From: Flaviaesturariibacter aridisoli
GTDB taxonomy: Bacteria; Bacteroidota; Bacteroidia; Chitinophagales; Chitinophagaceae
DNA: 64,000 bases
Assembly (NCBI RefSeq): GCF_004343705.1
Contig: NZ_SKFH01000001.1
Coordinates: 310,001-374,000 of the forward strand
Reading direction: 5' to 3'
Both the position numbers and the translations under genes were made by a program. Numbering within the stretch: position 1 is the stretch's first letter; every line of letters begins with the position of its first letter. The notes under the pieces were generated by a model that had not been told where the DNA came from, ran no database searches, and saw only the letters and a list, made by a program, of their open reading frames with translations. Shown here piece after piece: positions 5,605-46,499 of this stretch.

Positions 5605-5639
5605 CCTCACGCCTCACGCTTCACGGTTCACGCTTCACG
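5605..5639. repeat. Heptanucleotide array (CCTCACG, five copies)
   Basis: Five consecutive 7-base units: CCTCACG, CCTCACG, CTTCACG, GTTCACG, CTTCACG. It starts 40 bases after the oxidoreductase stop and is the same family as the larger arrays at 21189-21473 and 46451-46499. Confidence 0.85.
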
Positions 5640-20429: not shown

Positions 20430-21161
20430 ATGAACGAAGCTTCCCAACTGCAAGACGTCCGGCCGGAAGTGCTGCACGATCTGCAGGATTATTTCAAGAC
20501 CCACGACCCACGTTACCTCACCGAAGACGTCGTGTACCGCAACCTCTCCACGGGCGAAGTGCACCGCGGCCGCGCCGAAGTAGGCGCCCTGCTCCAGCAG
20601 GTGTACCGGGTGGCTTTTGATGCCCGCCTCGAGGTAGACCTCCTGTTCGTGCACGAGCACGAAGCGATGATGGAAGGCACCATCCGCGGGCGGCACGTGG
20701 GTGAATTCAACGGCATCGCTGCCACCGGCCAGGAAGTGGCCATTCCCCTCCAGGCAGCCTATACCCTCCGCGACGGACTTATCGCCGAAAACCGGTTCTT
20801 TATTTCGCTTGCCGTATTTTACCAGCAACTGGGCATGCAGCCCGCGCAGCCCCACACGCGCAGCGCATACGTGGTGCGCGATGCTTTTCAATTGCACTTC
20901 GGCGCCTTCCGCGAAGCCCGCAAGCTGCTGGTGGAAGCCCTCGACAAGGACCTCGTGCCCCGCGACCCGGGCACCCGCGTGTTTACCGACTTCACCGGCG
21001 ACTCCTACCGCCTCATACTCGAAAAGGGCTTCGACAGCCTCAGCGCCTACGAGCAGGGCCTTAGCGGCAATATGAGCCAGGAGGCCTGGCAACAGTGGTA
21101 CGCCAGCTTCAAGCCACTGGTGGAGCGCAGCCACCGCGAGATCCTGCGGCAGGTGTATTAG
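20430..21161 (+). CDS. SnoaL-like ester-cyclase-fold protein with second domain
   Basis: The first 125 residues of this 243-residue protein fit a SnoaL/NTF2-like domain (SnoaL-type ester cyclase): LTEDVVYRNLSTGEVHRGRAEVGALL, then MMEGTIRGRHVGEFNGIAATGQEVAIPL and YTLRDGLIAENRFF. The second half (HFGAFREARKLLVEALDKDLVPRDPG...) looks like an antibiotic-monooxygenase/NIPSNAP-type dimeric barrel. The function of this fusion is not known. It is a single-gene unit; the repeat array at 21176-21473 starts just after its stop. Confidence 0.72.
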   Translation: MNEASQLQDVRPEVLHDLQDYFKTHDPRYLTEDVVYRNLSTGEVHRGRAEVGALLQQVYRVAFDARLEVDLLFVHEHEAMMEGTIRGRHVGEFNGIAATGQEVAIPLQAAYTLRDGLIAENRFFISLAVFYQQLGMQPAQPHTRSAYVVRDAFQLHFGAFREARKLLVEALDKDLVPRDPGTRVFTDFTGDSYRLILEKGFDSLSAYEQGLSGNMSQEAWQQWYASFKPLVERSHREILRQVY

Positions 21162-21175
21162 AAGCGGTCTTCAAG

Positions 21176-21473
21176 GGACTGCCCGAGTCGTCAGGCGTGA
21201 GGCGTCAGGCGTGAACTGGGACGGCCCGAAAGTGTCGTGAGGCGTGAGGCGTCAGGTGTGGGCAGGGACTGCCCGAAAGAGTCGTCAGGCGTGAGGCGTC
21301 AGGTGTGGGCAGGGACTGCCCGACAGTAGTGAATGTTCTTCTGACGCCTCACGCCTCACGCCTGACGCCTCACGCCTCACGCCTGACGCCTGACGCCTCA
21401 CGCCTCACGCCTCCCGCCTGACGCCTGAAGCCTGACGCCTCACGCCTGACGCCTCACGCCTCCCGCCTCACGA
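21176..21473. repeat. Large inverted heptanucleotide array (CGTCAGG/CGTGAGG, then CTGACGC/CTCACGC)
   Basis: The left part repeats a unit of three or four heptamers (CGTCAGG, CGTGAGG, CGTCAGG, CGTGxxx) joined by a spacer like GGGACTGCCCGAAAGAGT; four spacers start near 21174, 21217, 21265 and 21311 (spacing about 47). After a 12-base AT-rich turn the right part, 21341-21473, is exactly 19 heptamers in the opposite sense (CTGACGC or CTCACGC with few variants). The whole could fold into a very long hairpin. It fills the 329-base gap between the SnoaL-like gene and the VOC gene; no gene is seen in it. Confidence 0.92.
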
Positions 21474-21490: not shown

Positions 21491-21910
21491 TTAAGCTGCC
21501 GACTTCGGGTCCCAGCCGATGCTCCAGCGCACGCCGAAGCGGTCGGTGACCACGCCGAAGAGGGCGCCCCAGAATTGCATCTTGAGGGCGTCGTATACGT
21601 GACCGCCGTCGGACAGCTTTTCAAAGTAGCGGCGGCATTCTTCTTCGGTGGCGCAGGCGACCATCACGGCGAAGTTGTTGCCGGCGGTGAAGGGCGGCGG
21701 CGTCAGGTCGGAGGCCATGAGCACGAAGGCGCCGTTGTTCAACTGGCCGTGCATGATGCGGCTATGCGCCTCGGGCGGAAAGTGCGCCGCCATCGGCGAA
21801 GATCCGACCTCCAGCAGCTGCAGCTCGCCGCCGAAGCAGTCTTTGTAAAACGTGAGGGCTTCGCGGGCCTGCCCGTCGAAGTTGACGTAGGGAATAGCGT
21901 GGGTATGCAT
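21491..21910 (-). CDS. VOC-superfamily protein (PhnB-like)
   Basis: The 139-residue protein fits the glyoxalase/bleomycin-resistance (VOC) fold in its PhnB-like branch: HAIPYVNFDGQAREALTFYKDCFGGEL at the start, then IMHGQLNNGAFVLMASD and the ending FGVVTDRFGVRWSIGW. Members bind a metal and a small molecule; the substrate here is unknown. ATG at 21910 was chosen because it directly begins the domain; the longer ORF upstream runs through repeat sequence. Confidence 0.85.
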   Translation of the reverse strand: MHTHAIPYVNFDGQAREALTFYKDCFGGELQLLEVGSSPMAAHFPPEAHSRIMHGQLNNGAFVLMASDLTPPPFTAGNNFAVMVACATEEECRRYFEKLSDGGHVYDALKMQFWGALFGVVTDRFGVRWSIGWDPKSAA

Positions 21911-22328: not shown

Positions 22329-22424
22329 ATGGTTGGGTTTTGATGACGAAGGAAAGGCGGGTAACGTAGCTACTTCTAATTTACGAACATGTCGCGAAGG
22401 AAGGATGGATGAGGTGAGGGAAAG

Positions 22425-22590
22425 TTTTTAGTTTGTAGTTTATAGTTTGTAGTTGCTGGCGCCCGCGAAGGCAAAGCTGTCATTGCGAGCGGAGCAGGCT
22501 GCTTTGCTCGCAATGACACCAAAAGGCGCCGCGGGAGCGACGCCTTTTGACAAACTATAAACTATAAACTCTAAACTGTAAACTATAAAC
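22425..22590. repeat. Inverted TTTGTAG heptamer element with nested hairpin
   Basis: Left arm 22425-22452 is four heptamers (TTTTTAG, TTTGTAG, TTTATAG, TTTGTAG). Right arm 22555-22589 is five (CTATAAA, CTATAAA, CTCTAAA, CTGTAAA, CTATAAA). Between them is a perfect 12-base inverted repeat GTCATTGCGAGC (22479-22490) / GCTCGCAATGAC (22506-22517), flanked by GGCGCC-containing sequence. The element fills the gap between the DUF4242 start and the stop of the next gene. Confidence 0.88.
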
Positions 22591-22607
22591 CGGAAACCGG
22601 CAACTCC

Positions 22608-23285
22608 CTACACCGCTTCTTCCTTCTTCCGCTCTGCCGCATACAGGAGGTCGAAGGAAAAGAAGGAACCGGCCGTTGCGGCGTCGGCGGGGTAGCGGGC
22701 GCCCACTTCGTGCAGCGCCTTGCAGAGGGCTGTTTCCAGCACGCGGCGGGCGGCGCGCACGGAGGCCGCCTTATCGTCGGCAGAGCCCGCTTGCACCTGC
22801 TGGGCACCGCGTACACGGAGCCAGCCTTCGGGGAAGGCCGCGAGCTCGGCGGCGAGCTCGGTGGTCAACAGGTCAGGGTGCTTGCTGGCGGCGGCGGCCG
22901 CCAGCTGCATCAGCGCATGTGCGCTGCCGCGGTTGATGTCGTTATAGCCGTCGAGGCCCTGCGGAAAAAACTCGAGGTAGGTCGGATGTCCTTTGCGGAT
23001 GTTGTGTACGCCGAGGGAATCTTCCGTTCGCCGGATCGTGCTCAGGAAGGCATCGGAATAGTCGTCTACCGACACGGTGCGGCCCTTCAGCACCGCCCGG
23101 GCGGTAATGACGCCGCCCAGCAGGTCGCGGTAGGTGGCCAGCGGAAGCTCGATGCCCGCGGCCATGTCGGCCAGGAATTCCTTCAGCGACGAATAGGCGT
23201 CTTCACCGAAAAGAAGCATGCGGTAGTTGGAGATCTTGGGATCGTTGAAGAAGTTCCCGAAAAGCTTTACAGGATTGATGCGCAT
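22608..23285 (-). CDS. Protein of unknown function (225 aa)
   Basis: No family is recognised. The 225-residue protein has no signal peptide or membrane helix; it is helical, with a glycine-poor, alanine-rich C-terminal half. Motifs that could be conserved are NFFNDPKISNYRMLLFGEDAYSSLKEF at the start and HPTYLEFFPQGLDGYNDINRG in the middle. Its start codon is 33 bases from a six-copy 42-base tandem repeat (23318-23569) that occupies its upstream region. The frame is supported by codon use and by a clean stop beside the repeat element at 22590. Confidence 0.6.
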   Translation of the reverse strand: MRINPVKLFGNFFNDPKISNYRMLLFGEDAYSSLKEFLADMAAGIELPLATYRDLLGGVITARAVLKGRTVSVDDYSDAFLSTIRRTEDSLGVHNIRKGHPTYLEFFPQGLDGYNDINRGSAHALMQLAAAAASKHPDLLTTELAAELAAFPEGWLRVRGAQQVQAGSADDKAASVRAARRVLETALCKALHEVGARYPADAATAGSFFSFDLLYAAERKKEEAV

Positions 23286-23317
23286 AAAGAGTTGATTATT
23301 AATTGTTTTGGTAAATT

Positions 23318-23569
23318 GGGATTGTCAAAATCGGAAAGGCGGCGGATCGTCGGCGGAATGCACCTGTCAAAACCGACAGGGGCATCGATCCACCGCGCGA
23401 TGGCATTGTCAAAATCGACAGTGCCATGGATCGTTTGCGCGATGGCATTGTCAAAACCGGAAGTGGCCTGGATCGGCTGCCGGATGCCACTTGCAAAATC
23501 GGAAGTGGCCCGGATGGACGCCGCAGTGCCCTTGTCAAAAATGGAAGTGCCATCCGGCGGCCGCGGCAG
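23318..23569. repeat. Six-copy 42-bp tandem repeat
   Basis: Six exact-length units (starts 23318, 23360, 23402, 23444, 23486, 23528). Each has a TTGTCAAAAyCGgaAgTGsC core followed by a GGAT-type segment. Because 42 is a multiple of three, several frames on both strands stay open and show 14-residue periodicity; I cannot say that any is translated. The array lies directly upstream of the 225-residue protein gene. From its end to about 23825 I see no gene or further structure. Confidence 0.92.
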
Positions 23570-23825
23570 GTGGTTGACGGTTTTGTCAGCGAAGCAGACC
23601 CACCCGCGGGCGGGGCAGGTGGAAACTGGGGAGGAGGAAGTAGGTTGCAGCGCCATAGCTACTGGTTTGGTGGGGGCGGTGCTTTTCGGGGGTGGCTAGC
23701 AGTTGGTTGGGGAAGGAGGCTGGATCGGATTTAAAAGTAGCCTGCTGTTTTGGAGAAAACAATAGAGGAAATACGGTATTTCGGAGGGTAGAAATACGGA
23801 GGGCTACGGAAAGATTTGGCGGCTG

Positions 23826-26158: not shown

Positions 26159-29100
26159 TTGAATCCCCGACAGAACCTAACCACGCGCTGGCTGCCTGTA
26201 GCCCTCCTGTTGCTCGTATGCATGAGTGGCGCCTTCGCACGTACCCCGGGAGCTCCCGGGTTTTTCGCTCCTGGCCAACCCCGCACCGATACCGTTCCCG
26301 TTCCCGGACCCGACTCCCTCCGCTACCCGATCCAGGACCGCCGCGGCGACCCCTACAACTACAACAACCGCAACCCCTTCGACCTGAAGGATACCGGCTA
26401 CGTAAAGCGGACGGTGGAGTACGACCCGCAAACGAAGCAATACTATATCGTGGAAAAGATCGGCAACCGCTACTACCGCACGCCGATGACCTTTTCGATG
26501 GAAGAATTCCAGCGCCTGCAGGCCCGCCGCGACGAGCAGGAATACTTCCGCCGCCGTGCCAACACGCTCTTTTCCCTCAACAACCGCAAGGCCCGCCCCA
26601 ACTTCGGCTTCTCCAAAGACTGGATGAACCGCATCACCGGCAACGGCAAGGTGGCCATCAACCCCTCGGGTTACGTCGACATCGCCGCCGGCTACCAGGG
26701 CCAGAAGATCAACAACCCCACGCTCCCCGAACGCGCCCGCCGCAACGGGGGCTTCGACTTCCAGATGAACGCGCAGCTGCAGGTGGACGCCTCCATCGGC
26801 GACAAGATCAAGCTGCCCATCAACTACAACACGCAGGCGAACTTCGATTTCGAAAACCAGCTGAAACTCGATTACCAGGGCAAGAGCGACGAAATGCTCA
26901 AGGTGCTCCAGGCCGGTAACGTCAACTTCACCTCCAAGGGCACGCTCATCCCGGGCGCCCAGAACATCTTCGGTCTGAAGACGCAGCTCCAGATGGGCAA
27001 GCTCTACGCCACCGCCGTGCTGGCCAACCAGCGCTCGCAGCGCCAGAGCGCCAACCTCCAGGGCTCCGCGGCCACCGCTCCTTTTAATATCCGCGCCGAC
27101 GAATACGAGGAAAACCGCCACTTCCTGCTGGCGCAATACTTCCGCCTTAATTACAACAAGGCCCTGTCCAACCTGCCCGTGGTGCAAAGCAACGTGCAGA
27201 TCACCCGCGTGGAAGCCTGGGTAACCAACCGCACCGGCGCCACCACCAACGTGCGCGACGTCCTGGCCCTCATGGACCTCGGCGAGGTGACCCCCTTCGG
27301 CAACCCGGGCCCCGCGGGCCTGCCCACCAACATGGCCGGCTCGCTCTACGCCGTGCTCAACGGCTCGGCCGGCGCCCGCAACTCGTCCACCGCCACGTCC
27401 ACCCTCACCGGCCTCGGCCTCCAGTCGGTGCAGGACTTTGAAAAGACCTTTGCCCGCCGCCTCACGCAGAGTGTCGACTTCCAGGTGAACGAGCGCCTCG
27501 GCTACATCTCGCTCAACCAGCCCCTGCTCCCCGACGAGGTGCTGGGCGTCGCCTTCGAATACACCTATAATGGTAAGCGCTACCAGGTGGGTGAATTTTC
27601 GCAGGACGTGCCGCCGGATTCCTCGGGCAACTCGCAGAAGGTGCTGTTCCTCAAAATGCTGAAGGCCACCTCGCAGCGGCCCAACCTGCCCATCTGGCGC
27701 CTGATGATGAAGAACGTGTATACGGTGGGCTACGGCTCGCTGCAGCGCGAAGACTTCAAGCTCGATGTGGTGTACGAGCAGCCCTCGCTCGGCGAGAAGC
27801 GCTACCTGCCCCTGAGCGACACCGTGGCCACCATCACGCCCACGGTGAAGCCGCAGTATCTCGGCGTGCCGCTGCTCAACCTGCTCAACCTCGACCGGCT
27901 CAACAACCAGAACGACCCGCAGCCCAACGGCGTGTTCGACTACATCGAAGGCATTACCGTGGTGTCGGCGCAGAGCCGCATCATCTTCCCGGTGCTGGAA
28001 CCCTTCGGCCGCGACCTGGAATATGCCTTCAAGGACGGTCCGCCGACGGCGCCCGATACGATCCGCCGCTATTACCTCTATTACCCGCTGTACGATACCA
28101 TCAAAGCCATCGCCCAGACCTACGCCAACCTGAACCGCTTCAAGCTGGTAGGCAAGTCGAAGCAGGCCAACAACGTGGACTACCAGCTCGGTTTCAACAT
28201 CCCCCGCGGATCGGTAACGGCCGTGGCCGGCGGCCGCGTGCTGCAGGAAGGCATCGACTACGAGATCAACTACGACCTCGGCACGCTCCACGTGATCAAC
28301 CCCGCCATCATCCAGAGCGGCATTCCCGTACAGATACAGTTCGAGAACAACGCCACCTTCGGGCTGCAGCAGCGCAACTACATGGCGCTGCGCCTCGACT
28401 ACCTGGCCAACAAGCACCTAACCCTCGGCGGTACGATGGTGCGCCTCTCGGAGCGGCCCTTCTTCACGAAGCAGCAATACGGCGAAGACCCGATCCGCAA
28501 CACGATGTACGGCGTCGACTTCGACTACCGCAAAGACATCCCGCGCCTGTCGCGCCTCCTTGACAAGCTGCCCTTTTACAGCACCAAGGCCATGTCGGCC
28601 ATCACGGCCTACGGCGAAGCCGCCTACCTGCAACCGGGCCACGCCCCGCAGATCGGCAAGGGCAACGAGGGTCTTATTTATATCGACGACTTCGAAGGCA
28701 CCCGCTCCTCCATCGACCTGCGGTTCCCGCTGTCGGCCTGGACGCTGGCCTCCGCCCCCCAGGGCGCCGTAGACCCCTCGGGCACGCCGCTGGTACCCGA
28801 AGGCAGCCTGACCAACGACCTGCGCTACAACGACAACCGCGCCAAGCTGGCCTGGTACAACATCGAGCCGGTGCTGCAGGAAAAGAGCAACGCCAACAAC
28901 CCCCTGCAGCGCAACCTCGTGGAGCTGTCGAAGCCCGAAGTGCGCCAGGTGTTCCAGAACGAGATCTTCCCCAAGCGCACCCTCGACGTGGGCCAGGGCA
29001 TCCTCACCACCTTCGACCTCGCTTATTACCCGAAGGAGAAAGGTCCGTATAACTACAACACGAGCCCCGGCGCCGTGAATGCCGCCAACGGCCTCAGCAA

Positions 29101-32100
29101 CCCGAAGAAGGCCTGGGCCGGCATCATGCGCTCCATCGACCAGACCGACTTTGAATCCGGCAACATCGAGTTCATCGAGTTCTGGATGCAGAACCCCTTT
29201 ACCAACCGCGCCAGCAGCAATGGTGGCGACCTTTATTTCCACCTCGGCAACCTGTCGGAAGACGTGCTGAAAGACGGCCGGCGCCAGTTCGAGAACGGCC
29301 TGCCCACGCCGTCGAGCCCGGCCACGCCCACCGATGAAACGGTGTGGGGCCGCGTGCCGCGCAACCCGCAGCAGGTGACCAACGCCTTCTCCAACGACCC
29401 CGCCGACCGTCCCTTCCAGGACGTGGGCTTCGACGGCCTCCCCGACAGCGCCGAGCAGCGCAAGTTTGCCCCCTACGTGCAGCAGCTGCAGTCGATCGTC
29501 ACCGACCAGGCCGCCCGCCAGGCGCTGCAGGCCGACCCCTCCAACGACAACTTCCGCCACTACCGCGACGCCGCCTTCGGCGACAATACCGGCATCCTCG
29601 AGCGGTACAAGAACATCAACAACCCGCAGGGCAACTCGCCGGTGGCCAACAGCGCCGACCAGTTCTCCTCCGCGTTTACGCTCTACCCCGACCAGGAGGA
29701 GCTGAACCGCGACAACACGCTCAACGAAACGGAAGCCTACTTCCAGTACCGCGTGCACCTCGAGCCCAACATGCTGGCGGGCACCAACTACATCACCGAC
29801 ATCCGCGACGTGCCCGTGCGCCTCGCCGACGGCAGCACCCGCAACGAGAAGTGGTACCTGTTCCGCATCCCGATCCAGGCCTATTATTATAAGACGCCGA
29901 ACATCCCCGACTTCAAGTCGATCCGCTTCATGCGGATGTTCCTCACCGGCTTCGACGATACGCTCGTGGCCCGCTTCGGTAAGCTGGAACTCGTGCGCAA
30001 CCAATGGCGCAAATTCACCAACGAGATCGACACGCTCGGCAACGTGCGCCCGCCCGTAACCGGCTCGACCACCACCGAGGTGCTCGCTGTGAACCTCGAA
30101 GAGAACGACCAGCGCGAGCCCATCCCGTACCGAACGCCCCCGGGCATCGACCGCCAGCAGCAGCTGTCCAACAACAACGTGCAACTGCTCCAGAACGAAC
30201 AGGCGCTCAGCGTGCGCGTGTGCGGCCTGCAGCCCAACGAATCGCGCGGGGTGTTCAAGACGCTCAACATGGACCTGCGCCAGTACGGCAGCCTGTCGAT
30301 GTTCATCCACGCCGAAAGCTCCGCCAGCCCCGGCAACGACATCAAGGACGGCGAGATGCAGGCCGTGATCCGCATCGGCTCGGACTTTGTGAGCAACTAT
30401 TACGAAATCAAGATTCCGCTCCGCATCACGCCCTGGGGCACGAAAGACTCCGGCGGCATCTGGCCTTCGGGCAACAGCCTCGAGCTAGACCTCGAAGAGC
30501 TGGCGCGTGTGAAGATGGCCCGCAACCGCTCGGGTACCTCGCCCTCGAAATACTGGAGCACCACCATCGGCGACCGCGTGTTCTCCATCTTCGGCAACCC
30601 CAACCTCGGCGAGGTGCGCGGCATCCTGCTTGGTGTGCAGAACAAAAAGACCGAACCGATCTGCGCTGAAACCTGGTTCAACGAGCTGCGCCTTTCGCGC
30701 CTCAACGAGGAAGGCTCCTGGGCCGCCCTCGGCCGCGTGGACCTGCGCCTCGCCGACCTCGGCTCAGTCTCCTTTGCCGGTACCATAAAGAAAGCCGGCT
30801 TCGGTACCCTCGAGCAGCGCGTGAACGAGCGCGCCCGCGAAGATTTTTCGCAGTACGACATCGCCGCCAACCTCGACCTCGGCAAGCTCATTCCGAAAAA
30901 GGCCGCCATCGAGATCCCGGTATACGTAGGGGTGACGAAAGCCGTCTATACGCCGAAGTACGATCCCTACGACCTCGACATCCGGCTGAAGGACAAGCTC
31001 GCCGAAGCGCCCGCCGACGAGCGCGACTCGATCCGCACCAATGCCGTGGACCAGACCACCATCAAGACCGTCAACTTCACCAACGTGCGCAAGCGCAAGA
31101 CCAATGGGAAGCCGACGCAGCCCTGGGATATTTCGAACATCAACCTCAATTACTCGTATACCCACCAGGCGCATACGAACCCGATCATCGAGGAAGACGA
31201 CATCAAGCGGACCCGCGCGGCCGTAGGCTACAACTATGCCCCGCAGCCGAAGTACGTGGAGCCGCTGAAGAAGCTCATTCGCTCGCGCTCGCCCTGGCTG
31301 GCCTTTATCCGCGACTTCAACTTCAATTACAAGCCGCAGGTGGGCTTCAAGGCCGACGTGTTCCGCCAGTTTGGCGCGCTGCGCCCCCGCAACGTTGGTG
31401 GCGATGCGTTCATCATTCCGGAGTCTTACGACAAGCGCTTTACGTTCGATCGCTACTATACCCTGCGCTGGGACCTGACGCGGTCGCTGCTGTTCGACTT
31501 CAGCGCCGTGACCAATGCCATCGTGGACGAACCCTACGGGCGCCTCACGAAAGAGCAGCGCGACACGGTGGCGAACAACTTCTGGAAAGGCGGCCGCACC
31601 ACGCACTATTCGCAGACCGGTACGCTCACCTATAACCTGCCCACGGCGAAGTTTCCGCTTCTCGACTGGACGCAGGCCACCGTGTCGTACACCGCGAAAT
31701 ACGAGTGGATCGCCTCCTCGTTGCTGGCCCGCACCGACACCATCAACCTCGGTAACAAGCTGCTCAACGGCCAGACGAAGAACGTCAACACGACCCTCAA
31801 CTTCGACCAGCTGTATAATAAGTGGAAGTTCCTGCGCACGATGTACGCCACCCAGGGACAGGCACGCCCGCGTCCGCCGGCGGCCGGCGGCAAGGGAGGC
31901 GGCCGCGATTCGGCGCAGCAGGCCCCGCAGCCCCGCGTGGCCCCCCCGGGCAACATCGGCACGCTGCCGCGCTTCCTGCTCAACATTGCTACGGCGCTGA
32001 AGCGCGTGGGCGTGCAGTACACCGCCGACGCCGGCACGCTGCTCCCGGGCTTCCTCGACAGCGCCCGCACGCTCGGCATGAACATGCGCAGCAATGCTCC

Positions 32101-33394
32101 CGGCTGGAAATACATCTTAGGCTACCAGCCCGATACCAACGATATCAACATCCTCGGCAACCGCGGCCTGCTCACGCGCGACAAGCTGTTCAACGAGCTC
32201 ATTCAGCAGCGCTACAGCCAGAAGCTGGCCATCACCGCGCAGTTCCAGCCTTTCCGCGACTTCATCGTGGACGTGAACTGGGACAAGAGCTTCGAGAAGA
32301 ATTATTCGGAGCTGTATAAGGACACTACCGGCTCCGGCTTCGGGCCGCTGACGCGTGTGAATCCCTATGCCGCGGGTTCGTTCAGCGTGTCGTTCATTTC
32401 CTATAAGACCCTGTTCACGAAGTTCGATCCCAACCAGGTATCGGAGACCTTCCGCACCTTCGAGGCCAACCGTATCGTGCTGTCGCAACGCCTGGCGGCC
32501 GCCAACCCCTACTTCCAGCAGTTGGGCCTGGGCACCACGGCCGACGGCTTCAAGGAAGGCTACGGGCGCTATGCGCAGGACGTGATCATTCCCGCCTTCA
32601 TCGCTGCGTATACCGGTAAGGACCCGATGACCGTGGCGACGATCAAGAACAGCAACCGGGACCTGCGCTCGAACCCCTTCTCGAATTTCATTCCGAAGCC
32701 GAACTGGAGCGTGAGCTACAGCGGCCTGTCGCGGCTGCCGGTGCTGGATAAGATCTTCACCAACGTGACGATCCGCCACGGCTACCACAGCACGCTCGGC
32801 ATGAACCAGTTCAACACCTCGCTGCTGTTCCAGGACCTGAGCCGCGTGGGCTTCCCCTCGTTTATCGACACCACGGCCGGCCGCAACACGTTCGTGCCCT
32901 ACTTCCTGGTGCCCAACGTCACCATCGACGAACGCTTCGACCCGCTGCTGGAGGTGGACATGACCTTCTCCAACCAGCTGTCGACGCGCGTGGAATACAA
33001 GAAGAGCCGCACGCTTTCGCTGAGCCTTACCGACTACCAGCTGGCCGAGAACCGATCTACCGAGTATACCATCGGCGTCAACTGGCGCCGCCGCGGGATC
33101 CCGCTGCTGAAAAGCTTCCGCGGCAAAAAGCTCGACAACGATGTGACCTTCCGTTTCGACTTCAGCCTCCGCGACGACGCTACGGCCAACACCAAGCTCG
33201 ACCAGAGCACGGCTTATCCCGCCGCCGGTCAGAAGGTGGTGCGCTTCTCGCCCACGATTGACTACGTGCTGAACAACCGCATCAACATCAAGCTCTATTT
33301 CGAGAACAACAAGATCATCCCCAAGCTGGCCACGACGGCCCCGATGAGCACCACGCGCGGCGGCGTACAGATCCGCATCTCGCTGGCGCCGTAA
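26159..33394 (+). CDS. sprA: T9SS outer-membrane translocon protein SprA (Sov)
   Basis: SprA is the giant 36-strand outer-membrane barrel through which type IX cargo leaves the cell; it is also needed for gliding where present. At 2411 residues the protein matches the family size. It has a signal peptide (about 1-28), then the diagnostic stretches IYIDDFEGTRSSIDL, the repeated long barrel with aromatic-ended strands, and a C-terminal segment rich in YxLxxRxNIKLYFENN-type strands. The start is TTG at 26159; no ATG precedes the signal peptide core, so TTG is preferred, though a start a few codons later is possible. A strong terminator follows at 33492. Shadow ORFs of 630-746 residues on the other strand are by-products of high GC. 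Confidence 0.96.
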   Translation: MNPRQNLTTRWLPVALLLLVCMSGAFARTPGAPGFFAPGQPRTDTVPVPGPDSLRYPIQDRRGDPYNYNNRNPFDLKDTGYVKRTVEYDPQTKQYYIVEKIGNRYYRTPMTFSMEEFQRLQARRDEQEYFRRRANTLFSLNNRKARPNFGFSKDWMNRITGNGKVAINPSGYVDIAAGYQGQKINNPTLPERARRNGGFDFQMNAQLQVDASIGDKIKLPINYNTQANFDFENQLKLDYQGKSDEMLKVLQAGNVNFTSKGTLIPGAQNIFGLKTQLQMGKLYATAVLANQRSQRQSANLQGSAATAPFNIRADEYEENRHFLLAQYFRLNYNKALSNLPVVQSNVQITRVEAWVTNRTGATTNVRDVLALMDLGEVTPFGNPGPAGLPTNMAGSLYAVLNGSAGARNSSTATSTLTGLGLQSVQDFEKTFARRLTQSVDFQVNERLGYISLNQPLLPDEVLGVAFEYTYNGKRYQVGEFSQDVPPDSSGNSQKVLFLKMLKATSQRPNLPIWRLMMKNVYTVGYGSLQREDFKLDVVYEQPSLGEKRYLPLSDTVATITPTVKPQYLGVPLLNLLNLDRLNNQNDPQPNGVFDYIEGITVVSAQSRIIFPVLEPFGRDLEYAFKDGPPTAPDTIRRYYLYYPLYDTIKAIAQTYANLNRFKLVGKSKQANNVDYQLGFNIPRGSVTAVAGGRVLQEGIDYEINYDLGTLHVINPAIIQSGIPVQIQFENNATFGLQQRNYMALRLDYLANKHLTLGGTMVRLSERPFFTKQQYGEDPIRNTMYGVDFDYRKDIPRLSRLLDKLPFYSTKAMSAITAYGEAAYLQPGHAPQIGKGNEGLIYIDDFEGTRSSIDLRFPLSAWTLASAPQGAVDPSGTPLVPEGSLTNDLRYNDNRAKLAWYNIEPVLQEKSNANNPLQRNLVELSKPEVRQVFQNEIFPKRTLDVGQGILTTFDLAYYPKEKGPYNYNTSPGAVNAANGLSNPKKAWAGIMRSIDQTDFESGNIEFIEFWMQNPFTNRASSNGGDLYFHLGNLSEDVLKDGRRQFENGLPTPSSPATPTDETVWGRVPRNPQQVTNAFSNDPADRPFQDVGFDGLPDSAEQRKFAPYVQQLQSIVTDQAARQALQADPSNDNFRHYRDAAFGDNTGILERYKNINNPQGNSPVANSADQFSSAFTLYPDQEELNRDNTLNETEAYFQYRVHLEPNMLAGTNYITDIRDVPVRLADGSTRNEKWYLFRIPIQAYYYKTPNIPDFKSIRFMRMFLTGFDDTLVARFGKLELVRNQWRKFTNEIDTLGNVRPPVTGSTTTEVLAVNLEENDQREPIPYRTPPGIDRQQQLSNNNVQLLQNEQALSVRVCGLQPNESRGVFKTLNMDLRQYGSLSMFIHAESSASPGNDIKDGEMQAVIRIGSDFVSNYYEIKIPLRITPWGTKDSGGIWPSGNSLELDLEELARVKMARNRSGTSPSKYWSTTIGDRVFSIFGNPNLGEVRGILLGVQNKKTEPICAETWFNELRLSRLNEEGSWAALGRVDLRLADLGSVSFAGTIKKAGFGTLEQRVNERAREDFSQYDIAANLDLGKLIPKKAAIEIPVYVGVTKAVYTPKYDPYDLDIRLKDKLAEAPADERDSIRTNAVDQTTIKTVNFTNVRKRKTNGKPTQPWDISNINLNYSYTHQAHTNPIIEEDDIKRTRAAVGYNYAPQPKYVEPLKKLIRSRSPWLAFIRDFNFNYKPQVGFKADVFRQFGALRPRNVGGDAFIIPESYDKRFTFDRYYTLRWDLTRSLLFDFSAVTNAIVDEPYGRLTKEQRDTVANNFWKGGRTTHYSQTGTLTYNLPTAKFPLLDWTQATVSYTAKYEWIASSLLARTDTINLGNKLLNGQTKNVNTTLNFDQLYNKWKFLRTMYATQGQARPRPPAAGGKGGGRDSAQQAPQPRVAPPGNIGTLPRFLLNIATALKRVGVQYTADAGTLLPGFLDSARTLGMNMRSNAPGWKYILGYQPDTNDINILGNRGLLTRDKLFNELIQQRYSQKLAITAQFQPFRDFIVDVNWDKSFEKNYSELYKDTTGSGFGPLTRVNPYAAGSFSVSFISYKTLFTKFDPNQVSETFRTFEANRIVLSQRLAAANPYFQQLGLGTTADGFKEGYGRYAQDVIIPAFIAAYTGKDPMTVATIKNSNRDLRSNPFSNFIPKPNWSVSYSGLSRLPVLDKIFTNVTIRHGYHSTLGMNQFNTSLLFQDLSRVGFPSFIDTTAGRNTFVPYFLVPNVTIDERFDPLLEVDMTFSNQLSTRVEYKKSRTLSLSLTDYQLAENRSTEYTIGVNWRRRGIPLLKSFRGKKLDNDVTFRFDFSLRDDATANTKLDQSTAYPAAGQKVVRFSPTIDYVLNNRINIKLYFENNKIIPKLATTAPMSTTRGGVQIRISLAP

Positions 33395-46307: not shown

Positions 46308-46450
46308 CGGATGAAAGTAACGAGAGAAAGAACGCAGATCTGTTAAGATCCTCAGGATTTATCAAGATTCACTTTGCCGCTGAGGAACACCTGCGCCAAT
46401 CGCAACAATCAAAAAAAACAGCGTTCTTTCCCTTTTTGCCCCGCTTCCCG

Positions 46451-46499
46451 GCTCACGCCTCACGCCTCACGCTTCACGCTTCACGCTTCAGGCCTCACG
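46451..46499. repeat. Heptanucleotide array over the queE stop codon
   Basis: Seven heptamers (GCTCACG, CCTCACG, CCTCACG, CTTCACG, CTTCACG, CTTCAGG, CCTCACG). The last unit contains the queE TGA stop, so the array begins inside the gene end. Same family as 5605-5639 and 21176-21473. Confidence 0.88.

Follow-up and report, generated by a model that had tools for sequence, protein, structure and literature searches.

What kind of element is an inverted array of heptanucleotides that fills the spacer between two convergent genes, and how would it have come about? The question is raised by positions 21187 to 21473 of the window (the whole 64,000-nt stretch of DNA analysed here, to which all coordinates refer), where such an array, described in an earlier note, was confirmed with small corrections. 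It occupies the spacer between a SnoaL-like and a glyoxalase-like gene, which converge on it. The features are as follows.

20430 to 21161, plus strand: left flanking gene, SnoaL-like, with the stop codon TAG at 21159 to 21161, 25 nt before the left arm
21187 to 21327, minus strand: left arm, three tandem 47-bp blocks, each of four GCGTSAG-type heptamers plus a spacer
21260 to 21274, no strand: palindromic spacer GGGCAGGGACTGCCC in the second block
21307 to 21321: copy of GGGCAGGGACTGCCC in the third block
21328 to 21340, no strand: short centre between the arms
21341 to 21473, plus strand: right arm, 19 consecutive heptamers in register, 15 of them exactly CTSACGC
21491 to 21910, minus strand: right flanking gene, glyoxalase / 3-demethylubiquinone-methyltransferase-like, with a TAA stop codon 17 nt from the right arm
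5607 to 5639, plus strand: short TCACGCT/TCACGGT heptamer array
46442 to 46499, plus strand: second CTCACGC-type array of the window

Architecture of the target array

Analysis of the left arm by TRF gave a period of 47 with 3.0 copies and 89% matches, in agreement with the earlier description of reverse-complement units interrupted by a spacer after every four. Some of its heptamers are degenerate (e.g., GGTGTGG and GCGTGAA), the palindrome GGGCAGGGACTGCCC is present in the spacers of blocks 2 and 3 (the positions of both copies and of the centre were read from the sequence), and the TGA of the GCGTGAG units runs in the sense of the left gene. For the right arm, 19 units drawn from CTGACGC and CTCACGC had been claimed; all 19 are in register, but only 15 are exact, the other four being CTCCCGC (twice), CTGAAGC, and the terminal CTCACGA. 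The order of the two unit types had moreover been likened to an irregular two-letter code. Since a period of 21 outscores a period of 7 in this arm (TRF scores of 208 versus 188), the apparent irregularity is in part an order of three-unit blocks, and a code is unsupported.

When perfect tandem runs were counted (periods 3 to 15, at least 11 matched positions), 15 of the 18 runs in the window had a period of 7 or 14, whereas these two periods together averaged 0.1 runs in 30 order-2 Markov sequences. The 47-bp blocks are alike, spacers included (89% matches), and do not have the unique spacers of a CRISPR array; no Rfam family was found at the array. Folded as RNA, the target spacer reaches -203.4 kcal/mol, while its shuffled versions average -139.7 kcal/mol (z = -12.1; none of 100 shuffles as good), so that the giant hairpin suggested earlier can form in silico, and the computed fold contains a stable RNA stem-loop as in REP/BIME-like elements. 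An intrinsic terminator (GC-rich stem plus T run) is not found in the target spacer, the two sites of a consensus scan falling outside it.

Further heptamer arrays of the window start at 5607, 22423, 22552, 24009, 46442, and 60652. Those at 22423 to 22454 and 22552 to 22605 form a second inverted pair, AT-rich in composition (AGTTTAT / AAACTAT), which occupies the spacer after next; its right array (22552 to 22605) contains two matches to sigma-70-like promoters, and the centre of that spacer holds an inverted pair of a dispersed string, GTCATTGCGAG, at 22479 and 22507, which also occurs in five other stretches of the source genome (L129, L138, L141, L152, and L156). Two reading frames of the window may be recorded in addition: a minus-strand open reading frame (23267 to 23656) whose 42-bp tandem repeats at 23365 to 23549 would encode 14-residue repeats, and a very long one of approximately 2390 codons at 26222 to 33394.

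Related arrays in the source genome and beyond

The source genome (G000; 4.37 Mb in 84 contigs) contains 100 exact matches to (CTSACGC)x3 at approximately 35 places (rows grouped by eye) and none to the reversed control, so the search for heptamer runs proposed in the earlier note revealed a dispersed family. Arrays of G000 were studied in 32 extracted stretches, and none of 53 arrays lay inside a called open reading frame. A recurrent layout consists of a gene end, (GCGTGAG)n, a terminator-like hairpin, (CTCACGC)n, and the next gene; among the extracted loci, a script detected 13 inverted pairs in G000 and 16 in G328, a genome of another genus. Eight of the 13 pair cores of G000 possess a strong central stem-loop, seven of these with a T-rich run (by eye). 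In G328, the arms change from GCGTGAG/ACGTGAG outside to TAGTGAA/TGGTGAA inside, with mirrored order in the opposite arm.

Exact matches were restricted to G000 and G016 among 38 near genomes (G000 included) and to G000 and G328 among 392 Bacteroidota, with the control heptamer in one; note that exact matching undercounts the arrays, because G016 also carries CTSACGG-type units. Over a common region of 3.9 kb with 94% identity, G000 and G016 have one array at the same place, with units shifted and altered. At the end of nadA, G016 is devoid of the left arm, the terminator being kept in place; its outer AAGAACG/CGTTCTT is retained and its inner stem differs on both sides. In L146 and L161, the terminators of the two close genomes agree in the outer stem but have entirely different inner stems, which looks like an exchange between loci. 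Elsewhere, a gene flanked by arrays on both sides is present in G000, in place of which G016 has a 54-bp heptamer spacer. Arms, copy number, and unit order thus vary between the two relatives at the two sites compared. The role as a recombination site proposed earlier stays putative, although at one of these sites a gene lies between two arrays in G000 and is absent from G016. Taken together, tandem 7-nt units occur well above chance at many, mostly intergenic loci and vary between relatives (two sites in G016): the period is fixed, the sequence is variable, and turnover between close relatives is rapid.

Outside the Bacteroidota, the named collection holds at least 117 stretches with (CTSACGC)x4, and the titles among the listed stretches include Proteobacteria, Actinomycetota, Chloroflexota, Verrucomicrobiota, Planctomycetota, and Bacteroidota. 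In even samples that include the centre genome, the heptamer was found in 12 of 369 Gammaproteobacteria (control, 2) and in 17 of 394 Actinomycetes (control, 5). Across three even samples with the centre genomes excluded, (CTSACGC)x3 occurred in 28 of 1152 genomes versus 8 of 1152 for the reversed control; CTSACGC is therefore only moderately favoured, and the idea of a universal heptamer was rejected. Rich genomes are scattered, with 95 matches in G435 and 59 in G434. The reversed control heptamer forms arrays of its own (15 matches in G592 and 2 in G483), so genomes rich in other heptamers also occur sporadically. With regard to possible carriage by phages, the viral collection yielded 15 matching stretches. 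A separate case is G432 (Anaerolineales, L230 to L246), in which 27 of 29 CTCACGC arrays lie inside called open reading frames in the stop-free direction, several of them adjoining membrane-protein-like reading frames.

Orientation relative to genes and the supply of stop codons

Initially, arrays were scored by a rule under which the strand with GTGAG was expected to run inward to the spacer from whichever gene edge is closer. This rule applied to 39 of 46 scored arrays in G000 (7 more at contig edges) and to 41 of 47 in G328, but to 37 of the 66 scored in the 117 loci of other genomes (beside which 33 were at an edge and 32 inside open reading frames). After a split by unit type, a framing in terms of stop codons took its place: at a 3' end, an array is "out" if its TGA-bearing strand lies in the sense of the adjacent gene and "in" if the opposite strand does. 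At 3' gene ends, CTCACGC-type and CTGACGC-type arrays are physically opposite, and both mostly have the TGA strand in gene sense. Within 0 to 60 nt past an intact stop, the eight array-rich genomes (G000, G328, G428, G434, G441, G435, G780, and G438) gave 57 arrays out, 4 in, and 4 ties. Specifically, G438, whose CTGACGC units are physically reversed, is still 8:0 out, and G435 (8:1) and G780 (2:0) were both obtained after the stop idea had been formed. G429 and G683, kept outside the eight-genome total, gave one out and none, respectively, in the same interval, and G432 was excluded from the orientation totals.

Nearest-edge counts were made for G000, G328, G428, G438, G441, and G434 plus the 117 named loci, nine of which come from genomes with a set of their own. 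At 3' ends, these counts were 35 out and 1 in at 0 to 10 nt, 33 and 6 at 11 to 60 nt, and 11 and 9 beyond 60 nt. A recount of gene ends with repeated genomes removed was weaker (60 out, 14 in); it gave 32 out and 8 in for TAA/TAG stops only and 17 out and 10 in for the loci of other genomes alone. Arrays that overlap gene ends were 53 out and 2 in, a ratio that proves nothing, since overlapping arrays are "out" by the definition of an open reading frame. The stop rule failed when it was tested later on Actinomycetes, with 4 arrays out and 6 in, two of the latter possibly from a single genome, and other heptamers outside G328 did not follow it either (2 out, 3 in, 4 without stops); at 3' ends, eight of nine of these other heptamers outside G328 point their G-rich strand into the spacer. 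The 5' ends are polar as well (41 out and 15 in by nearest edge; 16 out and 2 in for the eight array-rich genomes), which stop codons do not explain. These counts rest on genes called by a home-made script trained on a few kilobases per genome, the arrays are not independent events, and the stop framing arose from the data themselves, part of which was tested only afterwards. With these qualifications, we accept the stop rule for array-rich genomes that carry the CTSACGC heptamer, but not as a universal one. In the eight genomes the arrays lie between genes with a bias towards 3' ends, and stop-sense orientation is a property of the array-rich genomes.

In the eight genomes, array spacers were convergent in 43 cases, divergent in 11, and co-directional in 51; G000 alone had 7 convergent and 7 divergent ones. 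On a circular chromosome, convergent gene pairs equal divergent pairs in number. Promoters sit in divergent spacers, and a lower tolerance for arrays there may be partly behind the convergent excess.

Some genes end within an array. Where a stop-sense array overlaps a gene end (53 cases), the gene stops at the TGA of the first unit in 31 cases, of the second in 13, and of the third in 6 (the remaining 3 are ambiguous). Of the array-adjacent gene ends, 12 of 25 overlap the array in G000 (11 with TGA) and 12 of 25 in G328. Pooled, TGA is not enriched among intact stops beside arrays (30/61 versus 101/222, p = 0.66); in G328 alone the excess is strong (11/13 versus 9/39). If arrays supply stops, C-termini and 3' ends annotated in such genomes need care.

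Origin of the arrays and comparison with known repeats

Our preferred reading, to which we assign a probability of roughly 0.57, is that the arrays are lineage-specific dispersed heptanucleotide repeats that expanded in spacers, having grown by slippage, spread by recombination, and been filtered by translation, with the hairpin as a by-product. Units would grow and shrink by strand slippage together with block duplication. Growth by slippage, a possibility listed in the earlier note, would account for the block periods of 21 and 47 bp and for the shift of units seen at the orthologous site; the weak repair of longer loops is described in PMC4060949, and 7-nt loops would be poorly repaired. 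Repeats may move between loci by recombination or gene conversion, and translation could act as a filter on arrays at gene ends: because each 7-nt unit shifts the frame relative to the one before, a run of three units with stops blocks every frame. Stop-sense orientation should therefore be the one that gene ends tolerate best, and where two genes converge it places the arms in inverted order. On this view, the giant hairpin would be a consequence and not a purpose.

It is possible, if rather unlikely, that the arrays are instead a selected 3'-end element, in which the inverted arms fold into a long RNA hairpin and so protect or terminate the two converging transcripts in the manner of REP/BIME or a bidirectional terminator, with all-frame stops built in. 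The fold of the target spacer (-203.4 kcal/mol, z = -12.1, 0/100 shuffles as good), the 13 and 16 inverted pairs among the extracted loci of G000 and G328, the convergent excess over eight genomes, and the central stem-loops of G000 (8/13 cores, 7 with a T-rich run, by eye) speak for it; many arrays, however, consist of one arm only, an arm is missing from G016 at nadA, and a terminator-like stem is separate from the arrays where present and absent from the target spacer. Moreover, two arms from one locus do not resemble each other more closely than arms taken from different loci (p = 0.12 in G000 and 0.81 in G328). By the same values, copying between the arms of one locus is unsupported.

A related proposal, which we consider doubtful, is that of a device for gene ends that has evolved more than once: a cassette with stops in three frames and with its orientation set by the stop codon, so that the cassette is reversed once a single base change puts the TGA on the opposite strand. 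Its inverted pairs would also form a long 3' hairpin, and genes of several lineages would have come to end on its stops. Less credible still is a MITE-like mobile unit in which arm, core, and inverted arm travel as one element; the recurrent arm-core-arm layout and the minisatellite-bearing MITE of another Bacteroidota species (PMC4596501) would suit it, but the cores of the 13 and 16 pairs vary by locus without a common core or ends (by eye), single arms are common, and at the nadA site a single arm was lost or gained and the terminator kept.

Templated addition, by which a telomerase-like or other end-acting polymerase would add G-rich heptamers to broken ends that are then joined head-to-head, is highly improbable. 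The fixed period with variable sequence, the G-rich strand pointing into the spacer in the eight of nine other heptamers, and the position of Xanthomonas GGGAATC arrays nearer the 5' open reading frame (28 versus 160 nt in PMC4692102) agree with it, but the arrays of G438 point their C-rich strand into the spacer, and RVT_1, the one family searched, was undetected in five of the ten array-rich genomes (G000, G328, G438, G434, and G429; some assemblies are incomplete) and present in the other five. An RVT_1 reverse transcriptase is accordingly disfavoured as the source of the arrays. An assembly or shuffling artefact, to which five further G000 contigs ending inside heptamer arrays (C13, C24, C34, C37, and C48) might point, is close to negligible and not obvious for the target, given its place in the interior of a 374-kb contig, like arrays inside long contigs of G000 and of unrelated assemblies such as G328 (3 contigs, 99% complete), and the Markov average of 0.1 runs; heptamer arrays do break short-read assemblies.

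Heptamer arrays are common among bacterial repeats but have received little study, and the present ones contribute a Bacteroidota genome rich in them. They also contribute a heptamer with scattered occurrences across several phyla, together with a testable orientation rule. Cyanobacterial STRR are tandem 7-nt units at many loci, with sequences other than CTSACGC, and the likeness drawn in the earlier note is apt in that the present units share both properties. Enterobacterial REP/BIME are dispersed palindromic elements near 3' ends, like the arrays described here, and differ, by their general description rather than by sequence, in being without heptamer arrays.

Searches of the open-licence literature brought up no paper on the CTSACGC heptamer and none stating the orientation rule. 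The view that no named element has this structure holds for Bacteroidota in these searches, but inverted pairs of heptamer arrays have been described in Xanthomonas (PMC4692102). In that report, GGGAATC arrays are dispersed and mostly intergenic and mix variants of the unit. Two species have 70 and 75 inverted pairs, the arrays sit largely at the same positions in both while differing in length, and they are polar relative to the nearer open reading frame; in these respects they are like the arrays described here. GGGAATC is, however, G4-forming and stop-free on both strands (by inspection), whereas CTSACGC/GCGTSAG is stop-bearing and often surrounds terminator-like stems. BrickBuilt of Porphyromonas gingivalis, as described in PMC4596501, is likewise an intergenic, multicopy tandem repeat of Bacteroidota with small inverted ends, but as a MITE/minisatellite it has a 23-nt unit, leader and tail subunits, and promoter activity. 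TAACTGA direct repeats occur in Beggiatoaceae, Cyanobacteria, and some Bacteroidetes, and in PMC4679880 their author regards stop codons as probably a major factor controlling repeat distribution, citing an earlier survey in which heptanucleotides outnumber the other classes in most of the genomes that have many such repeats. They share with the present arrays the dispersed intergenic heptamers, the sporadic occurrence over phyla, and stops in one strand; in their main genome, however, they lie mostly just upstream of starts with only one indirect repeat, whereas here both 3' ends and inverted pairs are common. Dispersed heptamer repeats are thus already known in other bacteria, and the stop-sense orientation in several rich genomes is the less expected part: the CTSACGC arrays join the GGGAATC and TAACTGA kind, with a sharper statement of polarity.
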